Assembly (NCBI GenBank): GCA_031292625.1
Contig: JARLGU010000048.1
Span: 1 to 64,000, forward strand
DNA length: 64,000 nt
Origin: Capsulimonadaceae bacterium
Lineage (GTDB): Bacteria; Armatimonadota; Armatimonadia; Armatimonadales; Capsulimonadaceae
Direction of reading: 5' to 3'
Shown here: piece after piece, positions 2,297 through 14,236 of the stretch
Layout: every line of letters starts with the position of its first letter
How positions within the stretch are numbered: the stretch's first letter is position 1
Program-made: the position numbers and the translations under genes
The notes under the pieces: generated by a model
Told to the model about the DNA's origin: nothing
The model's database searches: none
What the model saw: only the letters and a program-made list of their open reading frames with translations

Positions 2297-3910
2297 ATGA
2301 ATGAAACATCTTATAGTCCAAGTCGCCAGCCTAAAGTCGCGTTTGTCTCCGTTGAATCCGGCATCGCCGCATTAGGATTCAGGCGAGTCGCAGCTGTTGC
2401 GCGGACAGTCGCGCCGCAGACGGATATTTTCTTTATCGCCGTCGATAACCTCTACTCGCTTCTGGGACAGATTGTTCCAACGAAACAAACCGGTTTCGAT
2501 ACGAACGACGCTGAAATCGCGGGCAAGCACCTGGCGGAGTACGACCTGATATGCTTCTCCGCGATGACAGCCTCTGCAAAGTACGTCGAGGCAATTATCT
2601 CATCGATCCGGATGCACAACCCCTCTGCATTTATTCTGTACGGCGGCGTTCACGCCATCCTCTACTCGGAAGACGCCATGGCCGTTTCTGATGCAATTTG
2701 CTACAACGAAGGGGAAAGACCTTTCGAGCTGTTCTATAAAGCGTTTGCCGCGTCCGAGGACTACACGGCAACGCCTGGTATGTGGTTCAAAACGCCGGGA
2801 GGCACGATCAAAAACCCGTCGCTAACGCTCAACAGCAACGAAGAGCTAACGGCCTTTCCCGTTCCATACGCCGGTCTCGATTGCGCAATATACGATCTGC
2901 GCGCAAAGAAGTTTCGACCATACACCAAGTTCGACTACGCCAGCTACAACGGATTGACATTCCGCACTGTTTGGTCCATTGGCTGCCCGTTCTCATGCAC
3001 ATTCTGCGCAAACGACGCATTCATCAACCTCGACAAGCATTACGCTCGTCTCCGATATCCGACCCCAGAGCATCTCGTCCAGGAGATTGAAGCAGCGATC
3101 TCATTGTATCCGCATATCTCGAACGTGGCATTTTACGACGATAACTTTATCGCTCTGCCAAAGCACATAATTCAAGAATTTAGCAACCTATACAAAACCC
3201 GCATCAATCTGCCGTTTGTCGTATTCGGAATTCACCCAAATACGATTTCTCAAGAAAAACTTGATATGCTTGCCGATGCCGGGGTGAACAGGGTTCGTAT
3301 GGGGATTCAGAGCGGCAGCGCGCGGATGCTCAAGTTCTATAACCGGGGGACCTTGGTGGATCGGATACAATCATCGGCTTCGATCCTCGCCATCGCCGCG
3401 CGCAAGCACAAGATGATCCCGCCGTCCTACGACATCATCACCGACAACCCGGTCGAAGAGCGCGACGACATCGTCGAAACGCTGCAATTACTTTACGACC
3501 TGGAACGCCCTTACACGATCACGCTGTTCGGTCTGAGGGTATTTCCAAACACCAAACTGTGGCAATATTTCGCGACTCATCCGGCGTTCGGAGACCCAAG
3601 AAATATCAACACCTCCTATTTGGACACGCGGCCGACAATGGGCAATGTTTTGCTTTACCTTCTCGGAGCCTGCAAGCCCCCGAAACGCCTGTTTGATTGG
3701 ATGCTGCGGCGGGTTAAAGGCTACAACGAAGAGCAGTCAATCTATCCGGCGCTTCATATGATCGTCAAGGTCGCTTACTTATCCAAGCGAGCACTGGATC
3801 ACATTAAGGCTCTCGACTTCACCGTGATCGTCGGCGCATGGACCTACTACGTCTGGAAGCTCGGGATCATCAAGCGCTCGCGAGTCAGATCGAGCGCCAA
3901 GACCGCCTAA
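2297..3910 (+). CDS. B12-binding-domain radical SAM protein
   Basis: About 537 aa. The N-terminal 130 residues look like a cobalamin-binding Rossmann fold, with the typical GGVHAILYSEDAM and YNEGERPFE segments. A radical SAM core follows, with the iron-sulfur motif CPFSCTFC (Cys 230, 234 and 237). Family members catalyse methylations or rearrangements using S-adenosylmethionine, often in lipid, antibiotic or surface-polymer synthesis; the substrate here is unknown. The C-terminal 120 residues are less conserved. An in-frame ATG at 2246 would add 17 residues. I prefer 2297 because the domain starts soon after it, but the GGAGAAA at 2274-2280 is rather distant, so the start is uncertain. Its neighbours are a membrane glycosyltransferase-like gene and a GT2 gene. 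Confidence 0.85.
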   Translation: MNETSYSPSRQPKVAFVSVESGIAALGFRRVAAVARTVAPQTDIFFIAVDNLYSLLGQIVPTKQTGFDTNDAEIAGKHLAEYDLICFSAMTASAKYVEAIISSIRMHNPSAFILYGGVHAILYSEDAMAVSDAICYNEGERPFELFYKAFAASEDYTATPGMWFKTPGGTIKNPSLTLNSNEELTAFPVPYAGLDCAIYDLRAKKFRPYTKFDYASYNGLTFRTVWSIGCPFSCTFCANDAFINLDKHYARLRYPTPEHLVQEIEAAISLYPHISNVAFYDDNFIALPKHIIQEFSNLYKTRINLPFVVFGIHPNTISQEKLDMLADAGVNRVRMGIQSGSARMLKFYNRGTLVDRIQSSASILAIAARKHKMIPPSYDIITDNPVEERDDIVETLQLLYDLERPYTITLFGLRVFPNTKLWQYFATHPAFGDPRNINTSYLDTRPTMGNVLLYLLGACKPPKRLFDWMLRRVKGYNEEQSIYPALHMIVKVAYLSKRALDHIKALDFTVIVGAWTYYVWKLGIIKRSRVRSSAKTA

Positions 3911-4041
3911 GCGGCCAAAGACCGCGGCGGCTTCAGCGCCGTTCAAGTCGCCTCTTCGCCGCACACAACGTCGAGCAGATGATGCGCCGCTAAAGATTGA
4001 TTCGCGGCTCGCCATAATCCATACTGGATAGGGTGAGCCTT

Positions 4042-5136
4042 ATGTTGCTTTCAATCTGTATTCCAACACATCATGGACGAGATTGGTCTCTAAAGGTCGC
4101 ACTCGACTCGATCATTGACCAGATCGAAAACGACCATCTGGCCGATTGCGTGGAAGTTTGCATCAGCAATAACGCCAGCCATGACGAGACCGGCGCAATC
4201 GCCGCCGCCGCGCAAGTGCGCGCTCCCAAGAACATTATCTACGACCGCCGCTCAATGGACGTCGGATCGTACAACTTCGTCAGCGTCGTCCGCATGGCCC
4301 ACGGAAAATTCTGCTGGTATCTCGGCTCCGACGATGCTCTCGAACCCGGCGCGCTCCGCGCAGTCCTCGACGCGATTAACCGCCATCCAAACTGTGCGGG
4401 TATCTCAACCTATTACCAGAATTACGACTCCACGCTCACGCATCCCGTCGCAAACCACCCGGACAGCTTGTACCCGAGCAATCGAACGATGGAACGCACG
4501 TTTACGACGTTTGAAGAAGGGCTGGCGGAGCTTGGACCCAGTTTCACGTTTATGTCGACGTTGATTTTCCGGAAGCAAATATGGGACGACGTCCTCGCGG
4601 TTGAGCCGTCTGATTACATTCATCAAACCCGCCATCACCTGCACAGCTACTTGCTCCTCCAGGTGCTTCGCCGCCATCCCGAATGGGTCTGGCTGCCAGT
4701 GAGCACCGTGCGCGCACGGAGCGACAACGCGAGCGTCACCCCGCTGGTCGGGCACAGATCGTACACCCACGCACTCATGGTTCTATCGGATATGTCGCCG
4801 ATGTGGAGCCGGTTTAGCGGAGACGATCGGGAAACTTACCGCCGGACGATGCGTAAGGCGTACCGCGTGCACTGGAGCCCGGCGGTTGTCCGGCACACGA
4901 AAATGCTCGCGCGTCATGAGGGGTGCGACGATTGGAAGATGCTTACCGGCTATACACGCTACCTCGCGAGCTTGCCGGATTTTTGGTGGGGATCGTTTCT
5001 AGCGCTGCTAATCCCGCATTGGTTCTGGAAAGCGACGCTTGGCTCAAAGCTCGTTCAGCAGGTCAAACAGGCCGTTCGCCAGAAGCCTGCGGCGTCCCCG
5101 GCGCTCATTCCGCAGTCGAACAGCCCAGCGCGCTAA
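4042..5136 (+). CDS. Family 2 glycosyltransferase
   Basis: About 364 aa, cytosolic GT-A fold. The N-terminus SICIPTHHGRDWSLKVALDS, the nucleotide-binding SNNASHDETG and the metal-binding GSDDALEPGAL segments are typical of GT2 enzymes, which transfer a sugar from a nucleotide donor. The C-terminus has a hydrophobic stretch (FWWGSFLALLIPHWFW) that may dock on the membrane. ATG 4042 is preferred because AGGG (4030-4033) lies eight bases before it; GTG 4033 would add three residues. It follows the radical SAM gene by about 130 bp and converges on the GT39-like gene, with a short hairpin between them. The acceptor is unknown; a role in cell-surface glycan assembly is inferred from the neighbours. 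Confidence 0.85.
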   Translation: MLLSICIPTHHGRDWSLKVALDSIIDQIENDHLADCVEVCISNNASHDETGAIAAAAQVRAPKNIIYDRRSMDVGSYNFVSVVRMAHGKFCWYLGSDDALEPGALRAVLDAINRHPNCAGISTYYQNYDSTLTHPVANHPDSLYPSNRTMERTFTTFEEGLAELGPSFTFMSTLIFRKQIWDDVLAVEPSDYIHQTRHHLHSYLLLQVLRRHPEWVWLPVSTVRARSDNASVTPLVGHRSYTHALMVLSDMSPMWSRFSGDDRETYRRTMRKAYRVHWSPAVVRHTKMLARHEGCDDWKMLTGYTRYLASLPDFWWGSFLALLIPHWFWKATLGSKLVQQVKQAVRQKPAASPALIPQSNSPAR

Positions 5137-5141
5137 TCGGC

Positions 5142-5159
5142 CGTCCGTCAGAGCGGACG
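5142..5159. terminator. Hairpin between convergent glycosyltransferase genes
   Basis: CGTCCG and CGGACG form a 6-bp stem around a 6-base loop in the 24-bp gap between two convergent stop codons. The position suits a bidirectional terminator, but no T-run is visible. Confidence 0.4.
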
Positions 5160-5160
5160 C

Positions 5161-6849
5161 TCACTTCCCAGCCTCTCGATGCGCCGCATCCGAGCGCCAT
5201 CCATCAAACACCTGCACCTCGGGGTCCTCGTAGCCGTTCACCGGCAAGTTGGATTGAAACCGGCCATACTTGACGTTCGCGGCATGGGAATAGAGAAACA
5301 GACCGAGCTGGCACTTCCACGAGAATATGTAAACCTGGCTATCCCAACCGAATGGGCCGCCGGGGGCGGGCGGATAGACGGTCGCATGCCCTCTCGGGTA
5401 ACCGTCCCGCACGCCGTCGATCACGTAAACCTTGCCGCCATGCTTGAGCACCGTTGCGCAGGATTGAAAAAGCGACTGCATCGGATCTCGCTCCATCATC
5501 GCTTGCTTTACCGGCACATACGACTCAGCCATATGCGATGACATTGGCGGTACGGTGGTCCAGGGAGCGTCCCCCCTGTAGTACCTATTAAACGTCACGC
5601 CATGCTCCCACGTGCTCAAAACGATCAGGTCGCCAGGGCCAGTCGCTTGCGCCAGCGAAGCGGCGCCAAGATCCAGGTTCGTTTGCCGAACCATGACGCT
5701 CGTCTGTACGGAGAGCGTAAACGCCCAGAGGTAACCGATTGCAAACACTGGCGCAACGTATCGCAACATCCCCCGGTCGAACAGCGGCATCAACAGGCTG
5801 TCGATGGACAGCGCCCCCACGGTCATCAGTCCCAGATAGTACCATGGCTGCGTGGGGTACCTCAGTGCAAACAAGAAGCCGAAGTAGAGAACCACCGCAA
5901 TAATTGGAGCCAGTAAGGCAAATGCCGTAAAATCTCGATCGATTGCAGAACGCTCGCCCCGGTTCGCCAAGAGTCGATAGAGTCCCGCGACAATTGCCGC
6001 GAGGAAGAGGATTGACCAGATATACAGCACATAGGGAGACGGCACGGCAATCGCGGAAGCAAACTTATGTATTAACCAGGCCATGCCAACCGGATGCTGC
6101 ACCAGCGCGCTCCAAGCGTGCTGGCGCTGGAATACCGGGATGTAGGGAACATACGTAAACGCGGCAATTGCCGCAGGCGCGAAGATCATAATAACGCGGC
6201 GCACGGTCATCTTCTGGCGCAACGCCACGACAGCCGCACTAACCGCAAGCGCCGCAACAAACGCCGCACATGTGTACAACGTTTGCACCGCCGCCACGCA
6301 CGCCAGCGTGGCCCAAGCACATTTTTTCGCGTCCGGCGAACGGATCAACCGCCAGTACGTCCAGAACATCGCGAGAAGCGCCAGCATTCCCCAGCCGTAC
6401 GCCCTGCTTGATCCGCCCCAGTGAATTACGCAAGGGCTCAGACCAAGCAACACTGTAGAGAAGACCGGCCAGCGAACTGGCGTGTCGCGAGCAATCAGCA
6501 CGAGTGCAATCAAGGACAAAACCGAAGAGGCAAAGCCAAAAAGTCTGTACGAAAAGTCCGCATCGCCTCCCACCACGTGAACGTATCGAAGACAAAACAA
6601 CCATAAAATCGGAAAGGAGTCGAGGTCGAGCCCGGCCCAAAGATCTCTCAGCGACGAACCTCCGACAATCGCCGCGCTATTGGCCTCGTCCCGCCATAAC
6701 CCCCCAGCGCTGCACGCAAATACCCACCGCAGCCAGAGGGCGACGGCGGCCACGAGGAGCCACGTCAAACATCTAGGGTCCGTCAGTGCGTCGATCAGCT
6801 TGCCGCGCGAAGACTGATCGCCAGGGAGATGTTCGTCTGGAAGAGCCAT
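5161..6849 (-). CDS. GT39/ArnT-like membrane glycosyltransferase
   Basis: About 562 aa with roughly ten to twelve membrane segments and a soluble C-terminal domain of about 150 residues. The first external loop carries the acidic pair typical of dolichyl-phosphate-mannose-protein mannosyltransferase and ArnT-like enzymes (LWRDEANSAAIVGG). These enzymes move a sugar from a polyprenyl phosphate to a protein or lipid acceptor outside the inner membrane. The ATG at 6849 is preferred; a TTG at 6879 would add ten residues, and no strong ribosome site is seen for either. The gene lies downstream of leuA on the same strand but behind a hairpin at 6924-6962, so it is probably a separate unit. Function is inferred from fold and neighbours. 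Confidence 0.75.
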   Translation of the reverse strand: MALPDEHLPGDQSSRGKLIDALTDPRCLTWLLVAAVALWLRWVFACSAGGLWRDEANSAAIVGGSSLRDLWAGLDLDSFPILWLFCLRYVHVVGGDADFSYRLFGFASSVLSLIALVLIARDTPVRWPVFSTVLLGLSPCVIHWGGSSRAYGWGMLALLAMFWTYWRLIRSPDAKKCAWATLACVAAVQTLYTCAAFVAALAVSAAVVALRQKMTVRRVIMIFAPAAIAAFTYVPYIPVFQRQHAWSALVQHPVGMAWLIHKFASAIAVPSPYVLYIWSILFLAAIVAGLYRLLANRGERSAIDRDFTAFALLAPIIAVVLYFGFLFALRYPTQPWYYLGLMTVGALSIDSLLMPLFDRGMLRYVAPVFAIGYLWAFTLSVQTSVMVRQTNLDLGAASLAQATGPGDLIVLSTWEHGVTFNRYYRGDAPWTTVPPMSSHMAESYVPVKQAMMERDPMQSLFQSCATVLKHGGKVYVIDGVRDGYPRGHATVYPPAPGGPFGWDSQVYIFSWKCQLGLFLYSHAANVKYGRFQSNLPVNGYEDPEVQVFDGWRSDAAHREAGK

Positions 6850-6971: not shown

Positions 6972-8522
6972 TTAGACGTGATCGAGCATGGGCACGGGGC
7001 GGCCGGACGTGCGGTCGAGTTGCTTGTTGAGCGCCTGCACGTAGGCCTTCGCGCTGGCCACAACGATGTCCGTGTGCGCGGAACGGCCCGTGTAAATATT
7101 GCTGTCCGAGCGCAAGCGAATCGTCACATCCGCCATCGCATCGATTCCCTCGGTGACGCTCTGTACGGTAAACTCGATCAGGTCGTTCGGTACGCGAACG
7201 ATCCGGTTGATCGCGCGGTAGACGGCGTCGACGGGACCGTTTCCCGTATCGGCGTCGCGCATCACCTTGCCGTCGTGACGCAGTTCCACCGTCGCGGTCG
7301 GGATCGCATTGTCGCCGCAAGCGACCTGGACGCGCTCCAGCTCATAGGTTTGCGGCACCGTGGTAATCGAATCGCTGACGATCGCCTTGAGGTCCTCGTC
7401 GTAGACCACCTTCTTGCTATCGGCAACCTTCAGGAAGCGCTCGTAAATCTTTTCGAACTCATCCGCAGGGCCGAACGTAATGCCGAGTTCTTCGAGCCGG
7501 TGTCTGACGCCATGGCGGCCCGATCGCGCGGACAGAATGATTTTGCTCTCCATGATGCCGATCGACTTGGGATCGATGATCTCATAAGTCGTCCGCTCCT
7601 TGAGCACGCCATCCTGATGAATCCCCGACGAATGCGCGAACGCATTCGCTCCGACGATCGCCTTGTTGGGCTGCACGAGGATGCCCGTCATCTGGGAGAC
7701 CATCCGGCTCGTGTTGTAAATCTCTTCCGTGTGCAAACCGACATCGAGACCGAACGAATCGCGCCGCGTGACCAGCGCCATCGTGACCTCTTCGAGCGAC
7801 GTGTTCCCCGCCCGCTCGCCGATTCCGTTGACGGTGCACTCGATCTGGCGAGCGCCGTTCCGAACCGCCGCGAGGGCGTTCGCGGTGGCCATTCCAAGGT
7901 CGTTGTGGCAATGGCAGGAGAGCGTCACGTTTTCCGATCCGGGCACATGCTCGAGGATGCCGCGGAACAGCGCGCCGTACTCCTCCGGAGTCAAGTAGCC
8001 GGTGGTGTCCGGGATGTTCAGCACGGTTGCGCCCGCTTTAATCACGGCCTCAAGGACTCGGTAAAGATACTCGGGCTCCGCGCGCCCGCTGTCCTCGGTA
8101 AAATATTCGATATCTTCGCAGCCCAGCTTGCGCGCATGGCGGACGGCGTTGACGCCAACTTCCAGCGCCTGATCCTCGGTCATCTTCAGCTTGTGCTGCA
8201 GATGGCTTTTCGAGACGCCAAGGCCCGTGTGGATGCGCGGCCGCTTCGCTCCGCGAAGAGCATCCCATGCCACGTCGATGTCCTTCTCCCTCGCGCGGGT
8301 CAGACCGCAGACGGTGACATCGCCGACCAGCGCCGAAATGCGGCGGACCGCCTCGAAATCGCCGGGCGAGGAGATCGGAAAGCCAGCCTCAATGACGTCG
8401 ACGCCGAGCTTTTCGAGCTGCCGCGCAATCTCAAGCTTCTCCTCGACATTCAGCGACGCGCCGGGCGATTGCTCCCCGTCACGCAATGTCGTATCGAATA
8501 TATGTACGCGTGTTTTGCTCAT
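6972..8522 (-). CDS. leuA: 2-isopropylmalate synthase
   Basis: 516 aa, the usual length. It condenses acetyl-CoA with 2-oxoisovalerate, the first committed step to leucine, in the cytosol. The N-terminal HMGL-like barrel starts with FDTTLRDGEQSPGA (Asp10, Asp15, Glu17), and the metal-binding HxHND is present (SCHCHNDLGMATAN). The C-terminal 150 residues are the regulatory LeuA dimer domain, which binds leucine in the family. ATG 8522 is the start: AAGGAG precedes it at good spacing and the protein begins at the conserved motif; longer in-frame extensions lack conserved sequence. It is the last biosynthetic gene of the ilv-leu operon, 116 bp after ilvC, and should be under the T-box at 13703-13988. 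Confidence 0.97.
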   Translation of the reverse strand: MSKTRVHIFDTTLRDGEQSPGASLNVEEKLEIARQLEKLGVDVIEAGFPISSPGDFEAVRRISALVGDVTVCGLTRAREKDIDVAWDALRGAKRPRIHTGLGVSKSHLQHKLKMTEDQALEVGVNAVRHARKLGCEDIEYFTEDSGRAEPEYLYRVLEAVIKAGATVLNIPDTTGYLTPEEYGALFRGILEHVPGSENVTLSCHCHNDLGMATANALAAVRNGARQIECTVNGIGERAGNTSLEEVTMALVTRRDSFGLDVGLHTEEIYNTSRMVSQMTGILVQPNKAIVGANAFAHSSGIHQDGVLKERTTYEIIDPKSIGIMESKIILSARSGRHGVRHRLEELGITFGPADEFEKIYERFLKVADSKKVVYDEDLKAIVSDSITTVPQTYELERVQVACGDNAIPTATVELRHDGKVMRDADTGNGPVDAVYRAINRIVRVPNDLIEFTVQSVTEGIDAMADVTIRLRSDSNIYTGRSAHTDIVVASAKAYVQALNKQLDRTSGRPVPMLDHV

Positions 8523-8638: not shown

Positions 8639-9664
8639 TTACTTGTCTTCGACGGCTTCGATAACGTCCGTCTTCTTGATCCAGGACATTAGACCGCGAA
8701 GTTTGCGGCCGACGCCTTCTATCTGCGATGCATTGTCGATACTGGCCAGCGCATTGAAATGAGGCCGGTTCGCCTTGTTTTCGAGGATCCATTCCTTGGC
8801 GAAGGCGCCTGTCTGGATCTCGGAAAGAACCTTCTTCATTTCCTTGCGGGTCTCTTCGGTGACGATGCGCGGTCCGCGCGTCATATCGCCATACTGCGCG
8901 GTATCGGAGATCGAGTAGCGCATGCCTGCGATGCCGGCCTCGTACATGAGGTCGACGATGAGCTTGAGCTCATGAAAACATTCAAAGTAGGCGATTTCCG
9001 GCTGGTAGCCTGCTTCGACCAGCGTCTGAAAACCAGCTTTGACGAGCGATGTGACGCCGCCGCAAAGAACCGCCTGCTCGCCGAAGAGGTCGGTTTCGGT
9101 CTCTTCCTTGAACGTCGTTTCCAGGACCCCGGCGCGCGATCCGCCGATTCCCTTGGCCCATGCAAGCGCCAGGTTCTTCGCGTTGCCAGTGGCGTCCTGC
9201 TGGACGGCGATCAACGCGGGAACGCCGCGGCCGTCCTGGAACTGGCGGCGAACCAGATGGCCGGGCCCCTTCGGAGCGACCATGAAAACGTCGACATCCT
9301 TCGGCGGCACGATCTGGCCAAAGTGGATGGCGAAGCCATGTCCGAAGACGAGCGCGTTGCCGGCGACGATATTCGGCGCAATGCTCTCGCGGTAAACGTC
9401 GCCCTGGATCTCATCGTTGATCAGAATCATGACGATGTCGCCTTCGCGAGCCGCGTCGGCAACAGGCAGAACCTTCAGTCCCGCCTCTTCCGCCTTCTTC
9501 CAGGATTTGGATCCTGGCCGCAGGCCGACGCGCACATCCAGACCGCTGTCCTTGAGGTTGAGCGAATGCGCATGCCCCTGCGAGCCGTAACCGATGACGG
9601 CGATCTTCTTGTTCGCGAGGAACTTCAAATCGGCGTCCTTATCATAGTAAACCTTCACTGCCAT
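8639..9664 (-). CDS. ilvC: Ketol-acid reductoisomerase (class I)
   Basis: 341 aa, the length of the short class I enzymes. It isomerises and reduces acetolactate (or acetohydroxybutyrate) with NADPH and Mg2+, the second step of valine and isoleucine synthesis. The N-terminal Rossmann motif is GYGSQGHA, and the loop [14 protein letters not shown] fits the NADPH-preferring form. The helical C-terminal domain carries the metal-binding [11 protein letters not shown] and [16 protein letters not shown] segments. The start is supported by GGGAG 13 bases upstream. It lies between a small membrane-protein gene (220 bp upstream) and leuA. Confidence 0.97.
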
Positions 9665-9883
9665 GAGCTTATTTATCTCCCGTTTCTCTTAGTTCGTTCA
9701 TATCAATGAGACGATATTCCGAAAAGCATAATGTCTGTAACAAAACCCCTCCACCCCAGAAGCGGTTAGGTGGGTTCCGTACAAGTGTTGTCACACGATC
9801 TTAGCCAAACTGAGACCCGCATTCCAACTTCCTGGGCCGCATCCTCCCAAAACGGGAGGAGAAAACAAACACTAAACCAGATC

Positions 9884-10315: not shown

Positions 10316-10855
10316 CTAGAGCGATCGCGGTCCCCGGCTCATCGCGATTCGCCCAGTGCGCACAAGTTCGCGCACCCCGTAAGGCTCGACGAGCTTCTCG
10401 AACGCGTCGATCTTGTCGCCCGCCCCCGTCAGTTCGATAACGAACGTCTTGTCCGACATATCGATAATACGCCCGCGAAATACATCCACAAGCTGCATGA
10501 TCGCTCCACGGTCGCGCACCTCGGCGTTCACCTTGATCAGCGCCAGCTCCCGGGCGACGATCGGCACGCCGATATAGTCTTGAACCTTGCTGACATCGAT
10601 CTGCTTATGGAGCTGCTTCGTAATCTGCTCCACGATCGTCTCGTCCCCGTTGACGACGATCGTCATACGCGAGACGTTCGGGTCGTCGGTGATTGAAACC
10701 GCCAACGACTCAATATTGTATCCCCGGCGAGCAAATAGACCGGCTACACGCGCGAGAACGCCCGGCTTATTATCGACAAGTACACTAATCGTATGTTGAT
10801 CCTGCACGGTTCGTGTGTGTCTCCTCGAGTCGAATTCGTATAACGTATGGGTCAT
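10316..10855 (-). CDS. ilvN: Acetolactate synthase small (regulatory) subunit
   Basis: 179 aa. It is the regulatory partner of IlvB and confers feedback inhibition by valine. The N-terminal ACT domain (about residues 20-95) begins HTISVLVDNKPGVLARVAGLF and contains RRGYNIESLAV; the C-terminal ALS_ss_C domain follows (RDRGAIMQLVDVFRGRIIDMS). The ATG at 10855 overlaps the stop of the upstream dehydrogenase gene by one base (TAATG), which points to translational coupling. The first 20 residues before the ACT domain are unusual, so a slightly later start cannot be excluded. Normally ilvN follows ilvB directly; here a dehydrogenase gene separates them. Confidence 0.95.
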   Translation of the reverse strand: MTHTLYEFDSRRHTRTVQDQHTISVLVDNKPGVLARVAGLFARRGYNIESLAVSITDDPNVSRMTIVVNGDETIVEQITKQLHKQIDVSKVQDYIGVPIVARELALIKVNAEVRDRGAIMQLVDVFRGRIIDMSDKTFVIELTGAGDKIDAFEKLVEPYGVRELVRTGRIAMSRGPRSL

Positions 10856-11580
10856 TAGTAGTCTGGAACTTCCTGGCGGGTCGCAAGAACAAGCATGTCC
10901 GCGATATTGACATTCGGCGGCCTGCCAACTACGTACACTACCGCGTCGGCAATATCCTCCGAAGTTAACGCAGTCCGCGCTTCGACCTCCGCCCTCTGTT
11001 TCTCTGAGCCGGGCTCTTCGCCCCAAAGCTCATTGAGCACCATGCCGGGCGAGATAACGCTCACCCCGATACCGTGCGGCGCGACCTGTTTTCGCAAGCC
11101 GACCGCCCAACCGTAAAGAAAATGCTTCGTTCCCGCATATACCGCGCTGTTTGAATACGTCGCTCGCCCCGCGATGCTGGCGGTCAATACGATCTGCCCG
11201 GTGCGACGTTCGACCATCGCGGGCAGCACGGCGCGCACAGTCCGCATGACGCCGTTCACGTTGACATCCACCATGGCCGCCCACTCGTCCGGATCTCCCG
11301 TTATCTGATCGTCGAAAGCAAACTGACCGGCATTCGCGAACACGGCATCGACCCGGCCGTACCGCGCGATCGCCTCGCGCGCAGCGAAATCAATGTCCCG
11401 CTGGACCGTCACGTCGCCAGGCAGCGCCACTGCGGCCGGCCCCAGGTCGGCTGCAAGCGCCGTGAGTTTATGCACGTTCCTCGCGACCAACGCAACCTGC
11501 GCGCCCGCCTTCACTAACGCACGCGCCGTCGCAGCCCCGATTCCGCTCGAAGCGCCTGTTATCAATACAACCTTGTCCAT
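10855..11580 (-). CDS. Short-chain dehydrogenase/reductase inserted between ilvB and ilvN
   Basis: 241 aa, classical SDR length. The cofactor motif TGASSGIG is at residues 8-15, NAG at 83-85, and the catalytic Ser135, Tyr148 and Lys152 (VYAGTKH) are intact, so it should be an active NAD(P)H-dependent oxidoreductase. The closest known group is the YdfG-like 3-hydroxy-acid/serine dehydrogenases, judged from the C-terminal VVYVVGRPPNVNIADMLV. ATG 11580 is chosen because the fold starts there. Its stop overlaps the ilvN start. The substrate is unknown; the position suggests a link to branched-chain keto or hydroxy acids, but this is inference. Confidence 0.9.
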   Translation of the reverse strand: MDKVVLITGASSGIGAATARALVKAGAQVALVARNVHKLTALAADLGPAAVALPGDVTVQRDIDFAAREAIARYGRVDAVFANAGQFAFDDQITGDPDEWAAMVDVNVNGVMRTVRAVLPAMVERRTGQIVLTASIAGRATYSNSAVYAGTKHFLYGWAVGLRKQVAPHGIGVSVISPGMVLNELWGEEPGSEKQRAEVEARTALTSEDIADAVVYVVGRPPNVNIADMLVLATRQEVPDY

Positions 11581-11786
11581 AGCGACAGAACCTAACTTCC
11601 CCAGAAGAGGCCCCTTCCGTTCGACACGTTCAGGGTCCTGAGGACCTCGAAGAGCCAAAGCGGAAGAGCGCCCGGAAGGCAGACTGCTGCACGAAAAACA
11701 CGTTCATCCGAGCAAAGCAAACCACGCGCCCAGGTTGAAAAGCGCCCATGCCGCGGGAAGCAATAGGCCCCCGTCCGGGAGAGCGC

Positions 11787-13562
11787 TTACCCGACCATCT
11801 CCTCAATTGCCGCCTCTTCCGGAGTATCGAAATGCTCCAACGGAACGTGCTGACTGGTTACGACTGTGCCAAGCGGCTTGAAATCGGCCGGATCCTGAAC
11901 CTGCATCTGCCGCACCGTCTGGCCTGCGGGGATCATCGGGAAGACGTTGTCTTCCTTCACAATCCGGAAATCGAGCACGGTCGGCCGATCGGTAATCGAG
12001 GACGCTTCCTCCAATGCTGCACGAACCTGCCCCGGCTCCGTGCAGCGAATCCCGTGCGCCCCATACGCGTCGGCGAGCTTGACGAAATCCGGCGACGCTT
12101 CCAGGTCGGTCGACGAGTAATGAGAATCCCAGAACATCTCCTGCCACTGACGAACCATGCCGAGAAACTGGTTGTTCAGGATACAAATCTTGATCGGCAG
12201 CTTGTAAATGCTCGCGACCATCAGTTCCTGGATGCACATTTGAATCGATCCGTCACCCGTAACGCAGAAGACCTGCTTCTCGGGACGCGCAAACTGAGCG
12301 CCGATTGCGGCTGGCAGGCCAAAGCCCATTGTCCCAAGCCCGCCTGACGTCACCATCTGATTCGGGTGCAGGTATTTGTAGAACTGCGCCGCCCACATCT
12401 GATGTTGGCCGACGTCGGTTACGACAATCGCCTCGTGTCCCGTCATCTCGCCAATCTCATGGATAACCTGCTGTCCGTGCAGCATGCCGTCCTTCGGGAA
12501 GAATAGCGGGTAGTCGCGCTTGAGCTCGTTGATCCGCCGGTTCCACTTGACGCGGCGCTTGGGTTCAACAACCTTCAAGAGTTCGATCAACACGTTCTTG
12601 ACATCGCCTACGATGGGAATATCGGGCTGGATCACCTTCCCGATTTCCGCCGGGTCGATGTCGATGTGGATGATCTTGGCGTGTGCAACCCATTCATCGG
12701 CCTTGCCGGTGACGCGATCGTCGAAGCGAGCCCCAACCGCGATTAGCAGATCGCACTCGGCAATCGCCAGGTTCGCGTAAGCCGTCCCGTGCATCCCCAG
12801 CATGCCCAGCGATTGCGGATGGGTCTCCGGAAACGCGCCCAAACCCTTGAGCGTGGTTGTAACGGGGATGTGCGCCATCTCCGCAAGCTCGATCAGCTCG
12901 CGTTCCGCGCGCGACGAAACCGTGCCGCCGCCGACATAGAGAACCGGCCGCTCCGAATGGTCGATCAGCACCGCCGCCTTCTTGATCTGCTGCTTGTGCC
13001 CCTCATAGTTTGGCTTATAGCTCGGGATCTCGACCTGCCCCCACGGTTGATAATCGACCGTGGCGCGGAAGACATCCTGCGGGATGTCAACGAGGACCGG
13101 CCCGGGACGACCGGAGCGCGCGATATGAAAAGCGTCCGCAATGATCTCGGGGAGCTTCTCGACATCCTTCACCAACCAGTTATGCTTGGTGATCGGCATT
13201 GTAATGCCCGTGATGTCCGCCTCCTGAAAGGCGTCGGTGCCGATCGACGCGGTCTTCACCTGCCCGGTGATCGCAACCATCGGAACGCTGTCCATCATCG
13301 CGTCGGCGATCGGGGTAACGAGGTTCGTGGCGCCGGGACCGGACGTCGCAAGGCAAACGCCGACGCGGCCGCTGGCGGCGGCATAGCCTTCCGCCATGTG
13401 CCCGGCTCCCTGCTCGTGGCGAACGAGGATGTGCCGGATATCCTTGAAGTCGTATAGGGCATCGTAAAGCGGGATAACGGCCCCGCCAGGATACCCAAAA
13501 ATTGTGTCGACCCCTTCGTGCTTCAGGCTTTCCAGAAGGGCGCGGCTGCCTTTCATCTTCAT
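11787..13562 (-). CDS. ilvB: Acetolactate synthase large (catalytic) subunit
   Basis: 591 aa. This thiamine-diphosphate enzyme joins two pyruvates, or pyruvate and 2-oxobutyrate, as the entry step to valine, leucine and isoleucine. The catalytic glutamate lies in [15 protein letters not shown] (Glu50), FAD/central-domain segments follow, and the cofactor motif is GDGSIQM...NN near residue 450. ATG 13562 is preferred over 13577 and 13607 because AGGTGG lies six bases upstream. It is the first gene after the T-box leader. The 206 bp between it and the dehydrogenase gene hold no convincing gene. Confidence 0.97.
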
Positions 13563-13702
13563 GACATTCCACCTCATCGGTCGCTTAACAAGCACACGCC
13601 GCTTCAATGCGGCCTGCGCGCCAACTCTCGGCGTTCGCGATGAAATCGCTCGCGAACGTAGTCACTCAATGCGCCGATCACTGACCGAGGCGATTATCAA
13701 TG

Positions 13703-13988
13703 AGAAAACCCCCCGTTCCTGCAACGATCGGCCGTGCAGGGACGAGGGGCCTTCGAAAAAGCTCCACGCGGTACCACCCTACTTCGAAGCGCACAAGGCG
13801 CTCCGCGCTTAGAGGACGCTGTTACGGGCGTGCCCCGTGCAAGCCTACTTGCCCGCGCTGGCGGACTTTTGGTTGCCTGCTCGGAGGGGAGTTCGGATCT
13901 GTCCGTGCTACCGCGTCGCACCAAACCGCGGCTCTCTGAAAGTCGTGGACGAACCTACTGGTCCTCGTCATCGCATTTGTTTCTTATG
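13703..13988 (-). ncRNA. T-box leader, leucine-type (CUC specifier)
   Basis: This riboswitch senses uncharged tRNA and lets transcription pass into ilvB. Read on the minus strand it has the expected order: GACGAGGAC near the 5' end, AGAGAG and a GGTGCGA stem I bulge, a specifier loop reading GAACTCCCCTCCGAG, the AAGTAGG region, and the hallmark T-box AGGGTGGTACCGCG at 13780-13767. CTC after GAA is the likely specifier and matches leucine; an ATC (Ile) a few bases earlier is the alternative. The 3' part can pair as antiterminator (AGGG with CCCT) or as the terminator listed separately. The ilv-leu gene content agrees with leucine control. Confidence 0.92.
13704..13750 (-). terminator. T-box-controlled terminator before ilvB
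   Basis: On the minus strand CCCCTCGTCCCTGCA and TGCAGGAACGGGGGG form a long stem closed by a GC-rich loop, followed by TTTTC. It overlaps the antiterminator 3' half, as expected for a T-box. Confidence 0.88.
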
Positions 13989-13994
13989 GACAGA

Positions 13995-14024
13995 ACTATA
14001 CCACAAGATCCACAAAGATGTCAA
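13995..14024 (-). promoter_or_regulatory. Sigma-70-like promoter of the ilv-leu operon
   Basis: On the minus strand TTGACA (14024-14019) and TATAGT (14000-13995) are separated by 18 bases. The predicted transcript start near 13988 falls exactly at the 5' end of the T-box leader. Confidence 0.85.
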
Positions 14025-14118
14025 ACACGGAATTCACTCGCCTAAATCCAAATCCCTCGTTCGATCTCTCACCACCTCCACAAAACGGCGTATTGTCCAG
14101 GCCGTACCAAACAAGGCA

Positions 14119-14148
14119 TTGACGCACCCGGCACTGGCAGGACATAAT
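14119..14148 (+). promoter_or_regulatory. Promoter of the DUF3034 gene
   Basis: TTGACG (14119-14124) and CATAAT (14143-14148) are separated by 18 bases, giving a leader of about 80 bases before the ATG at 14237. It is divergent from the ilv promoter. Confidence 0.6.
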
Positions 14149-14236
14149 ACCAAATGTCTATCGAGTTACTATGAATTCACGATGGATACAGATCGCAGAC
14201 TCCGTCGATGCTTGACGGCATAAGGATGACAAGACC

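Follow-up and report, generated by a model that had tools for sequence, protein, structure and literature searches.

The region described here lies in a 64,000-nucleotide stretch of DNA from a Capsulimonadaceae bacterium of the phylum Armatimonadota (contig JARLGU010000048.1, positions 1 to 64,000 of the forward strand), which is referred to as the window. Downstream of a leader at 13703-14024, the genes ilvB, ilvN, ilvC and leuA were identified, which bears out the ilv-leu genes of the first-pass annotation, and an open reading frame for a short-chain dehydrogenase lies between ilvB and ilvN (Table 1). That annotation had read the leader as a complete leucine T-box with a strong promoter in a diderm organism. 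The span it gave, which begins at 14024 with the -35 hexamer and closes with the U-rich tract TTTTCT at 13708-13703, is right, although the strand was left unstated; all of the elements lie on the minus strand.

Table 1. Features of the leader and of the genes behind it, in positions of the window.
Feature	Position	Strand	Basis or remark
-35 hexamer TTGACA	14019..14024	-	promoter scan
-10 hexamer TATAGT, TG before, spacer 18	13995..14000	-	promoter scan
T-box leader, full RF00230	13735..13980	-	107.7 bits, covariation
Stem I, outermost pair G13974-C13879; AGUA, and apical motifs AGAGA and GGUG	13879..13974	-	covariance model
AGUA motif of stem I	13959-13956	-	sequence
GAA before specifier	13894-13892	-	sequence
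Specifier CUC (Leu), immediately 3' of GAA	13889..13891	-	covariance model, alignment
T-box sequence AGGGTGGTACCGCG	13767..13780	-	covariance model, sequence
Bulge UGGU, for tRNA 3' end ACCA	13776-13773	-	sequence
Antiterminator: AGGG/CCCU and GCGUG/CUCGU, one U-U mismatch	13738..13780	-	covariance model
Intrinsic terminator hairpin and U-rich tail	13703..13751	-	folding; 5' arm overlaps antiterminator 3' arm
ilvB, acetolactate synthase large subunit	11787..13562	-	likely ATG 13562, inferred from GAGGTGG spacing
Short-chain dehydrogenase ORF, between ilvB and ilvN	10855..11658	-	
ilvN, acetolactate synthase small subunit	10316..10855	-	start inferred
ilvC, ketol-acid reductoisomerase	8639..9664	-	
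leuA, 2-isopropylmalate synthase	6972..8522	-	start inferred

The covariance-model search that had been proposed as a check was run with Rfam on the 64-kb window. It matched the minus strand at 13980-13735 to RF00230 with 107.7 bits against a cut-off of 93 (E 7.8e-23), and the alignment spans positions 1-219 of the 219 in the model, i.e. its full length. No Rfam family other than RF00230 scored above the gathering score in the window. The T-box hallmark, the stem I motifs and the terminator named in the first-pass annotation are all present within the span. The promoter it had claimed was likewise found, as a near-consensus TTGACA-18-TATAGT at 14024-13995 that agrees with 11 of 12 consensus bases and has TG ahead of the -10 hexamer; the transcription start would lie near 13988. 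This is the sole promoter-like site on the minus strand within 13500-14200, where the scan returned two sites over both strands against a shuffle mean of 0.4. Near-consensus hexamers also occur upstream of the T-box in three relatives (G002, G004 and G005), and weaker ones in others.

The stem I loop of the leader reads GAA-CUC-CCCUC, and the CTC specifier of the first-pass annotation is found in it as CUC at 13891-13889. Each of the 14 ilvB leaders aligned from the order has CUC as its specifier (13 by a pattern search and the fourteenth, from G004, through invariant alignment columns), and each has the UGGU bulge. The spacer between GAA and CUC has zero bases in this leader, one base in 12 of the 13 others and two in G004. 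The ilvB leaders beyond the order read GAA-(1-2 bases)-CUC with G, A or C as the next base; where the pattern gave more than one candidate for such a locus, the one in stem I was chosen by eye. The equivalent loop position holds GUC in valS leaders and AUG in the metM-like leaders described below.

The genome has 47 tRNA-family matches, 46 of which were typed by ARAGORN; the untyped one (L158) is a weak match. Among the 46 typed genes there is a single tRNA-Leu(GAG) gene, which has the 3' end ACCA, as do the four remaining tRNA-Leu genes. This tRNA fits both contacts, its anticodon with CUC and its ACCA end with UGGU. The UGGU bulge alone says little, since A73 is common to the Val, Ala, Glu and elongator-like Met tRNAs of the genome. 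As a separate observation, an initiator-like tRNA-Met (L144, G000:C34:129386-129459) ends in CCCA according to ARAGORN, with an unusual C73.

The first-pass annotation had named two outcomes that would speak against it. One, a covariance score below the threshold, is contradicted by the 107.7 bits given above. The other, a specifier that pairs with another tRNA, was checked for the +1 frame UCC (Ser) and the -1 frame ACU (Thr). Without a spacer base, the leader can be read as GAAC-UCC in the register of GAAC-GUC in the valS leaders. In addition, CUCCCC is invariant across the ilvB leaders of the order, so conservation at that level alone cannot separate CUC from UCC, and the bulge U could wobble with G73 of tRNA-Ser, as a passage of PMC7778990 describes for Trp T-boxes. 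Phylum-wide, however, CUC is conserved while the base that follows it varies, which fixes the frame as CUC and argues against UCC; ACU is also unconserved, since the base preceding CUC varies. The tRNA-Thr genes of this genome end in TCCA and its two tRNA-Ser(GGA) genes in GCCA, both a poorer fit to UGGU than the ACCA of tRNA-Leu(GAG), and the downstream genes are branched-chain genes, which argues against a Ser or Thr specificity. Both frames were ruled out on the phylum-wide conservation and the tRNA 3' ends, and a specificity other than leucine is considered very unlikely.

The terminator hairpin (13751-13707) folds with about -30 kcal/mol against a mononucleotide-shuffle mean of -16.6 (sd 3.0). 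Against dinucleotide shuffles the z value is -3.7, which is flattering because the hairpin was picked from several windows as the best one and no such choice was made for the shuffled sequences. With UUUUCU the U tract is short. A consensus terminator scan missed the terminator; thus its support comes from the folds and from comparison with relatives. Folding placed a hairpin before a T tract, sharing the 3' strand of the antiterminator, in 14 of 14 leaders, with z values of -2.7 to -8.0 that are again flattering since the best window was picked. The predicted antiterminator and terminator are mutually exclusive, and this is the switch that defines a transcriptional (class I) T-box. A translational (class II) T-box was considered and rejected, since the leader has a terminator, with the likely ilvB start about 140 bases past it. 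The stretch of 131 bases between the terminator and ilvB holds an inverted repeat, CGTTCGCGA, seen by eye, and no second copy of this stretch was found in the genome.

Covariation was counted on the alignment of the 14 ilvB leaders of the order; a further locus (L190), which reads CUC, was left out with its 3' part cut off. Over its 47 pairs, the covariance-model structure has 83.6% of cells paired, compared with 40-54% when it is slid by 1-3 columns, a comparison that favours the structure over the slid controls because the structure counted was derived from this leader's own covariance-model alignment. Changes on both sides with pairing kept were found in 24 of the 47 pairs, against a shuffle mean of 16.4 and with 0 of 500 shuffles as high. 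The strongest support falls on the stem I apical helix, on the antiterminator and on the helix that precedes the T-box, and helices 3 and 6 pair in just 56% and 64% of cells. Neither plain MFE folding of the whole leader nor RNAalifold on the 14-leader alignment recovered the T-box fold; the RNAalifold structure is partly different. The AGUA motif is unrecognisable in four of the 14 leaders, all from the bacterium's own family (L162, L165, L170 and L172, from G001, G002, G004 and G005), and these leaders keep CUC, UGGU and the terminator.

The match could in principle be a degenerate T-box, recognisable at the family level and lacking a control function. AGUA is gone from four of the five aligned ilvB leaders of the family, and the leader studied here has no spacer base and a short U tract. 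It retains, however, AGUA, the specifier, the bulge, the terminator and a near-consensus promoter, and the shared-strand hairpin in all 14 leaders and the covarying structure also argue against decay, which is judged highly improbable. Control through a leader peptide or metabolite riboswitch instead of tRNA has a parallel in Staphylococcus aureus, where a leucine-rich attenuator peptide is reported for the synthesis of branched-chain amino acids (PMC5794164). It is scarcely credible here, as no Rfam family besides RF00230 passed its cut-off in the window and all elements of the leader belong to a T-box.

The reading in which we place great confidence is that the leader is a transcriptional leucine T-box that senses tRNA-Leu(GAG) and controls ilvB and the ilv-leu genes. 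What is observed is the set of sequence elements with their conservation and covariation, two hairpins that exclude each other, a gene for the cognate tRNA and the genes downstream; by analogy with the known family, we infer tRNA binding, the sensing of charging, termination and co-transcription downstream. RNA polymerase would start at the proposed site and transcribe the leader. The anticodon of uncharged tRNA-Leu(GAG) would pair with CUC of stem I, the tRNA elbow would dock onto the stem I apical motifs, and the free ACCA end would pair with UGGU and stabilise the antiterminator, allowing read-through into ilvB. With leucine plentiful, tRNA-Leu would be charged and its 3' end unable to pair. 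Without the contact of the tRNA 3' end, the strand CUCGUCCCU would enter the terminator hairpin, and transcription would stop in the U-rich tract near 13703.

All eight regions from relatives preserve the order ilvB-ilvN-ilvC, and in seven of them leuA is next; neighbouring ilv-leu genes are up to about 4 kb apart. A tblastn search of these eight regions with the short-chain dehydrogenase gave no match at E 1e-8. Within the window, about 200 bases separate ilvB from the dehydrogenase and 651 bases separate ilvN from ilvC. The genes from ilvB to leuA would be co-transcribed, and either of these gaps could hold a promoter. Three open reading frames tested in the ilvN-ilvC gap gave no Pfam match. 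The same gap contains a short dispersed repeat with the hairpin CCTCCCGTTTTGGGAGG (9812-9864, minus strand), of which the genome has 14 further partial copies with 78-90% identity; contig C48 carries five of these.

The Bacillus subtilis ilv-leu leader is reportedly leucine-dependent (work said to be that of Marta et al. in 1996). It shares with the present leader the specifier CUC, which is on record in a passage of PMC2494555, leucine as the amino acid and a T-box ahead of ilv-leu genes. It differs in that the host here belongs to Armatimonadota and has outer-membrane genes, in that CUC here directly follows GAA, and in the short-chain dehydrogenase between ilvB and ilvN. The proteobacteria Geobacter sulfurreducens and Pelobacter carbinolicus also have a T-box before a leucine gene according to a passage of PMC2494555; there it precedes leuA, whereas here ilvB comes first, with ilvN, ilvC and leuA behind it. 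The T-boxes of valS and ilvD in Armatimonadota share the phylum and the architecture with the present leader and differ in the specifier, GUC for valS and GUC or CUC for ilvD. The leucine T-box is of an ordinary type, found here in a phylum from which T-boxes have been little described.

The diderm host of the first-pass annotation is reasonable from gene content, as the genome has two Omp85 and three secretin matches above the cut-offs. In control genomes, matches were found in 7 of 14 for Omp85 and 6 of 14 for secretin, and the matching genomes are all of kinds known to have an outer membrane. Among the matches listed for IlvB in named genomes, a list that may omit records very close to this genome, the five best are Armatimonadetes MAGs with 62-75% identity, and the next have 53-54%.

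At least one T-box match at E 0.001 or better was found in 73 of 101 genomes (this genome and 100 relatives up to the phylum), 37 of them over the cut-off, in an RF00230 search with strict filters that lose weak matches. In the order there are 44 T-box matches in 18 of 19 genomes, with none in G006, which is 69% complete. Of these, 37 were fetched, and 14 lie before ilvB, 14 before valS and seven before a thrC-like gene; the last two, L190 and L195, have 5 and 658 bases of downstream sequence and no assigned gene. Elsewhere in the phylum, 28 loci were collected and three without the exact T-box motif were dropped. The remaining 25 comprise 13 before ilvB and five before valS (by blastp), five before ilvD, and two (L026 and L032) without a gene class. 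For scale, TBDB is given as 23,535 T-boxes in a passage of PMC7778990. The literature search found no T-box paper for Armatimonadota, and among the matches listed for a leucine T-box in Deltaproteobacteria or Chloroflexi nothing was on topic. The first-pass annotation had called the locus informative for the distribution of the system, which is fair, but its value in this respect is modest because T-boxes before leuA were reported in 2008 in Geobacter and Pelobacter, as a passage of PMC2494555 records.

Three RF00230 matches were found in the genome itself, before ilvB, valS and the thrC-like gene. The valS match scores 81.4 bits, below the cut-off of 93; it is a short Val T-box of 183 bases that reads GUC (L160, G000:C60:92850-93032, minus strand). 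Similarly short valS T-boxes of 184-187 bases occur in G003, G009, G012, G013 and G016. All 14 valS leaders of the order read GUC by eye; in the phylum set, the specifier of one valS leader (L022) was not caught by the pattern. Outside the order, 12 of the 13 ilvB loci read CUC, and one (L018) has a T-box that reads GUC before ilvB, a likely specificity shift. The ilvD leaders read GUC in L008, L012 and L025 and CUC in L007 and L014. These specifiers suggest shifts of specificity between valine and leucine within the phylum.

The third T-box lies before the thrC-like gene (L161, G000:C18:37500-46500), with the T-box from 2893 and genes at 3338-6097 on the plus strand. The match scores 43.1 bits and ends before the T-box sequence, which is located further downstream. 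The thrC-like gene encodes a PALP-family protein that matches threonine synthase TIGR00260 with 290.3 bits (cut-off 167.1); a second TIGR00260 match in the genome scores higher (335.2) and has no T-box match beside it. Behind the thrC-like gene follow genes for a chlorite-dismutase-like (Cld-like) protein, a ThiS-family protein ending in GG and a NIL-domain protein; the ThiS-family protein scores just below the SAMP1 cut-off and just above that of the MoaD family.

A metM-like match was found in 26 of 61 genomes, 25 of which were scanned for a T-box (all except L228), and 13 of these have one. The 13 T-boxes score 40-91 bits, all under the RF00230 cut-off. Their loop reads GAA-(0-1 base)-AUG-R in 13 of 13 (12 by pattern and L227 by eye), and their bulge is UGGU in nine, UGGA in three, including this genome, and UGGG in one. 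Among 12 regions examined from relatives, metM-like, ThiS and NIL genes occur together in seven, five with the T-box (G001, G002, G003, G005 and G039) and two without it (G020 and G022). Of other regions with the T-box, G025 has ThiS and no NIL match, and G008 and G011 have neither ThiS nor NIL near metM in the stretch read. The UGGA bulge in this genome fits Thr better than Met, since the tRNA-Thr genes end in TCCA and the elongator-like tRNA-Met in ACCA; the loop of the leader contains no Thr codon.

The thrC-like operon may serve methionine synthesis in the manner of MetM/MetO. A passage of PMC12172450, citing Hasebe et al., describes the MetM homocysteine synthase of Streptomyces with the sulfur carrier metO and an upstream SAM riboswitch; the present genome would instead use a T-box that reads AUG, with predicted control by tRNA-Met. 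The same source proposes, in the passage concerned, that a cyanobacterial relative is mainly a threonine deaminase and not a full MetM. We lean, with reservation, towards a tRNA-sensing regulon with three members in this genome and its relatives, Leu-ilvB, Val-valS and Met-metM. In this regulon the operon metM-(Cld-like)-ThiS/MoaD-like-NIL would encode, in its "threonine synthase", a MetM-type homocysteine synthase with a ubiquitin-like sulfur carrier, and tRNA-Met charging would set methionine synthesis. Part of the reservation comes from the lack of ThiS and NIL near metM in G008 and G011 and from the thrC T-boxes known in Bacillota. By itself, a T-box ahead of a thrC-family gene has precedents. 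For example, T-boxes before hom-thrC-thrB are known in Bacillota (passage of PMC12452182), and a riboswitch table for Clostridioides difficile lists a T-box before threonine synthase in a passage that names no class (PMC11477304). Met T-boxes before methionine genes are also known (passage of PMC2494555). What would be new, if right, is the AUG reading combined with the metM-ThiS-NIL operon, and the literature search found no such case in the passages of PMC12452182, PMC11477304 and PMC12172450.

The leucine T-box brings tRNA-sensing control of branched-chain synthesis, best known in Firmicutes, to a phylum that has outer-membrane genes in this member. In addition, since the specifier names the amino acid, T-boxes aid annotation, and here they suggest that a gene labelled "threonine synthase" belongs to methionine synthesis.
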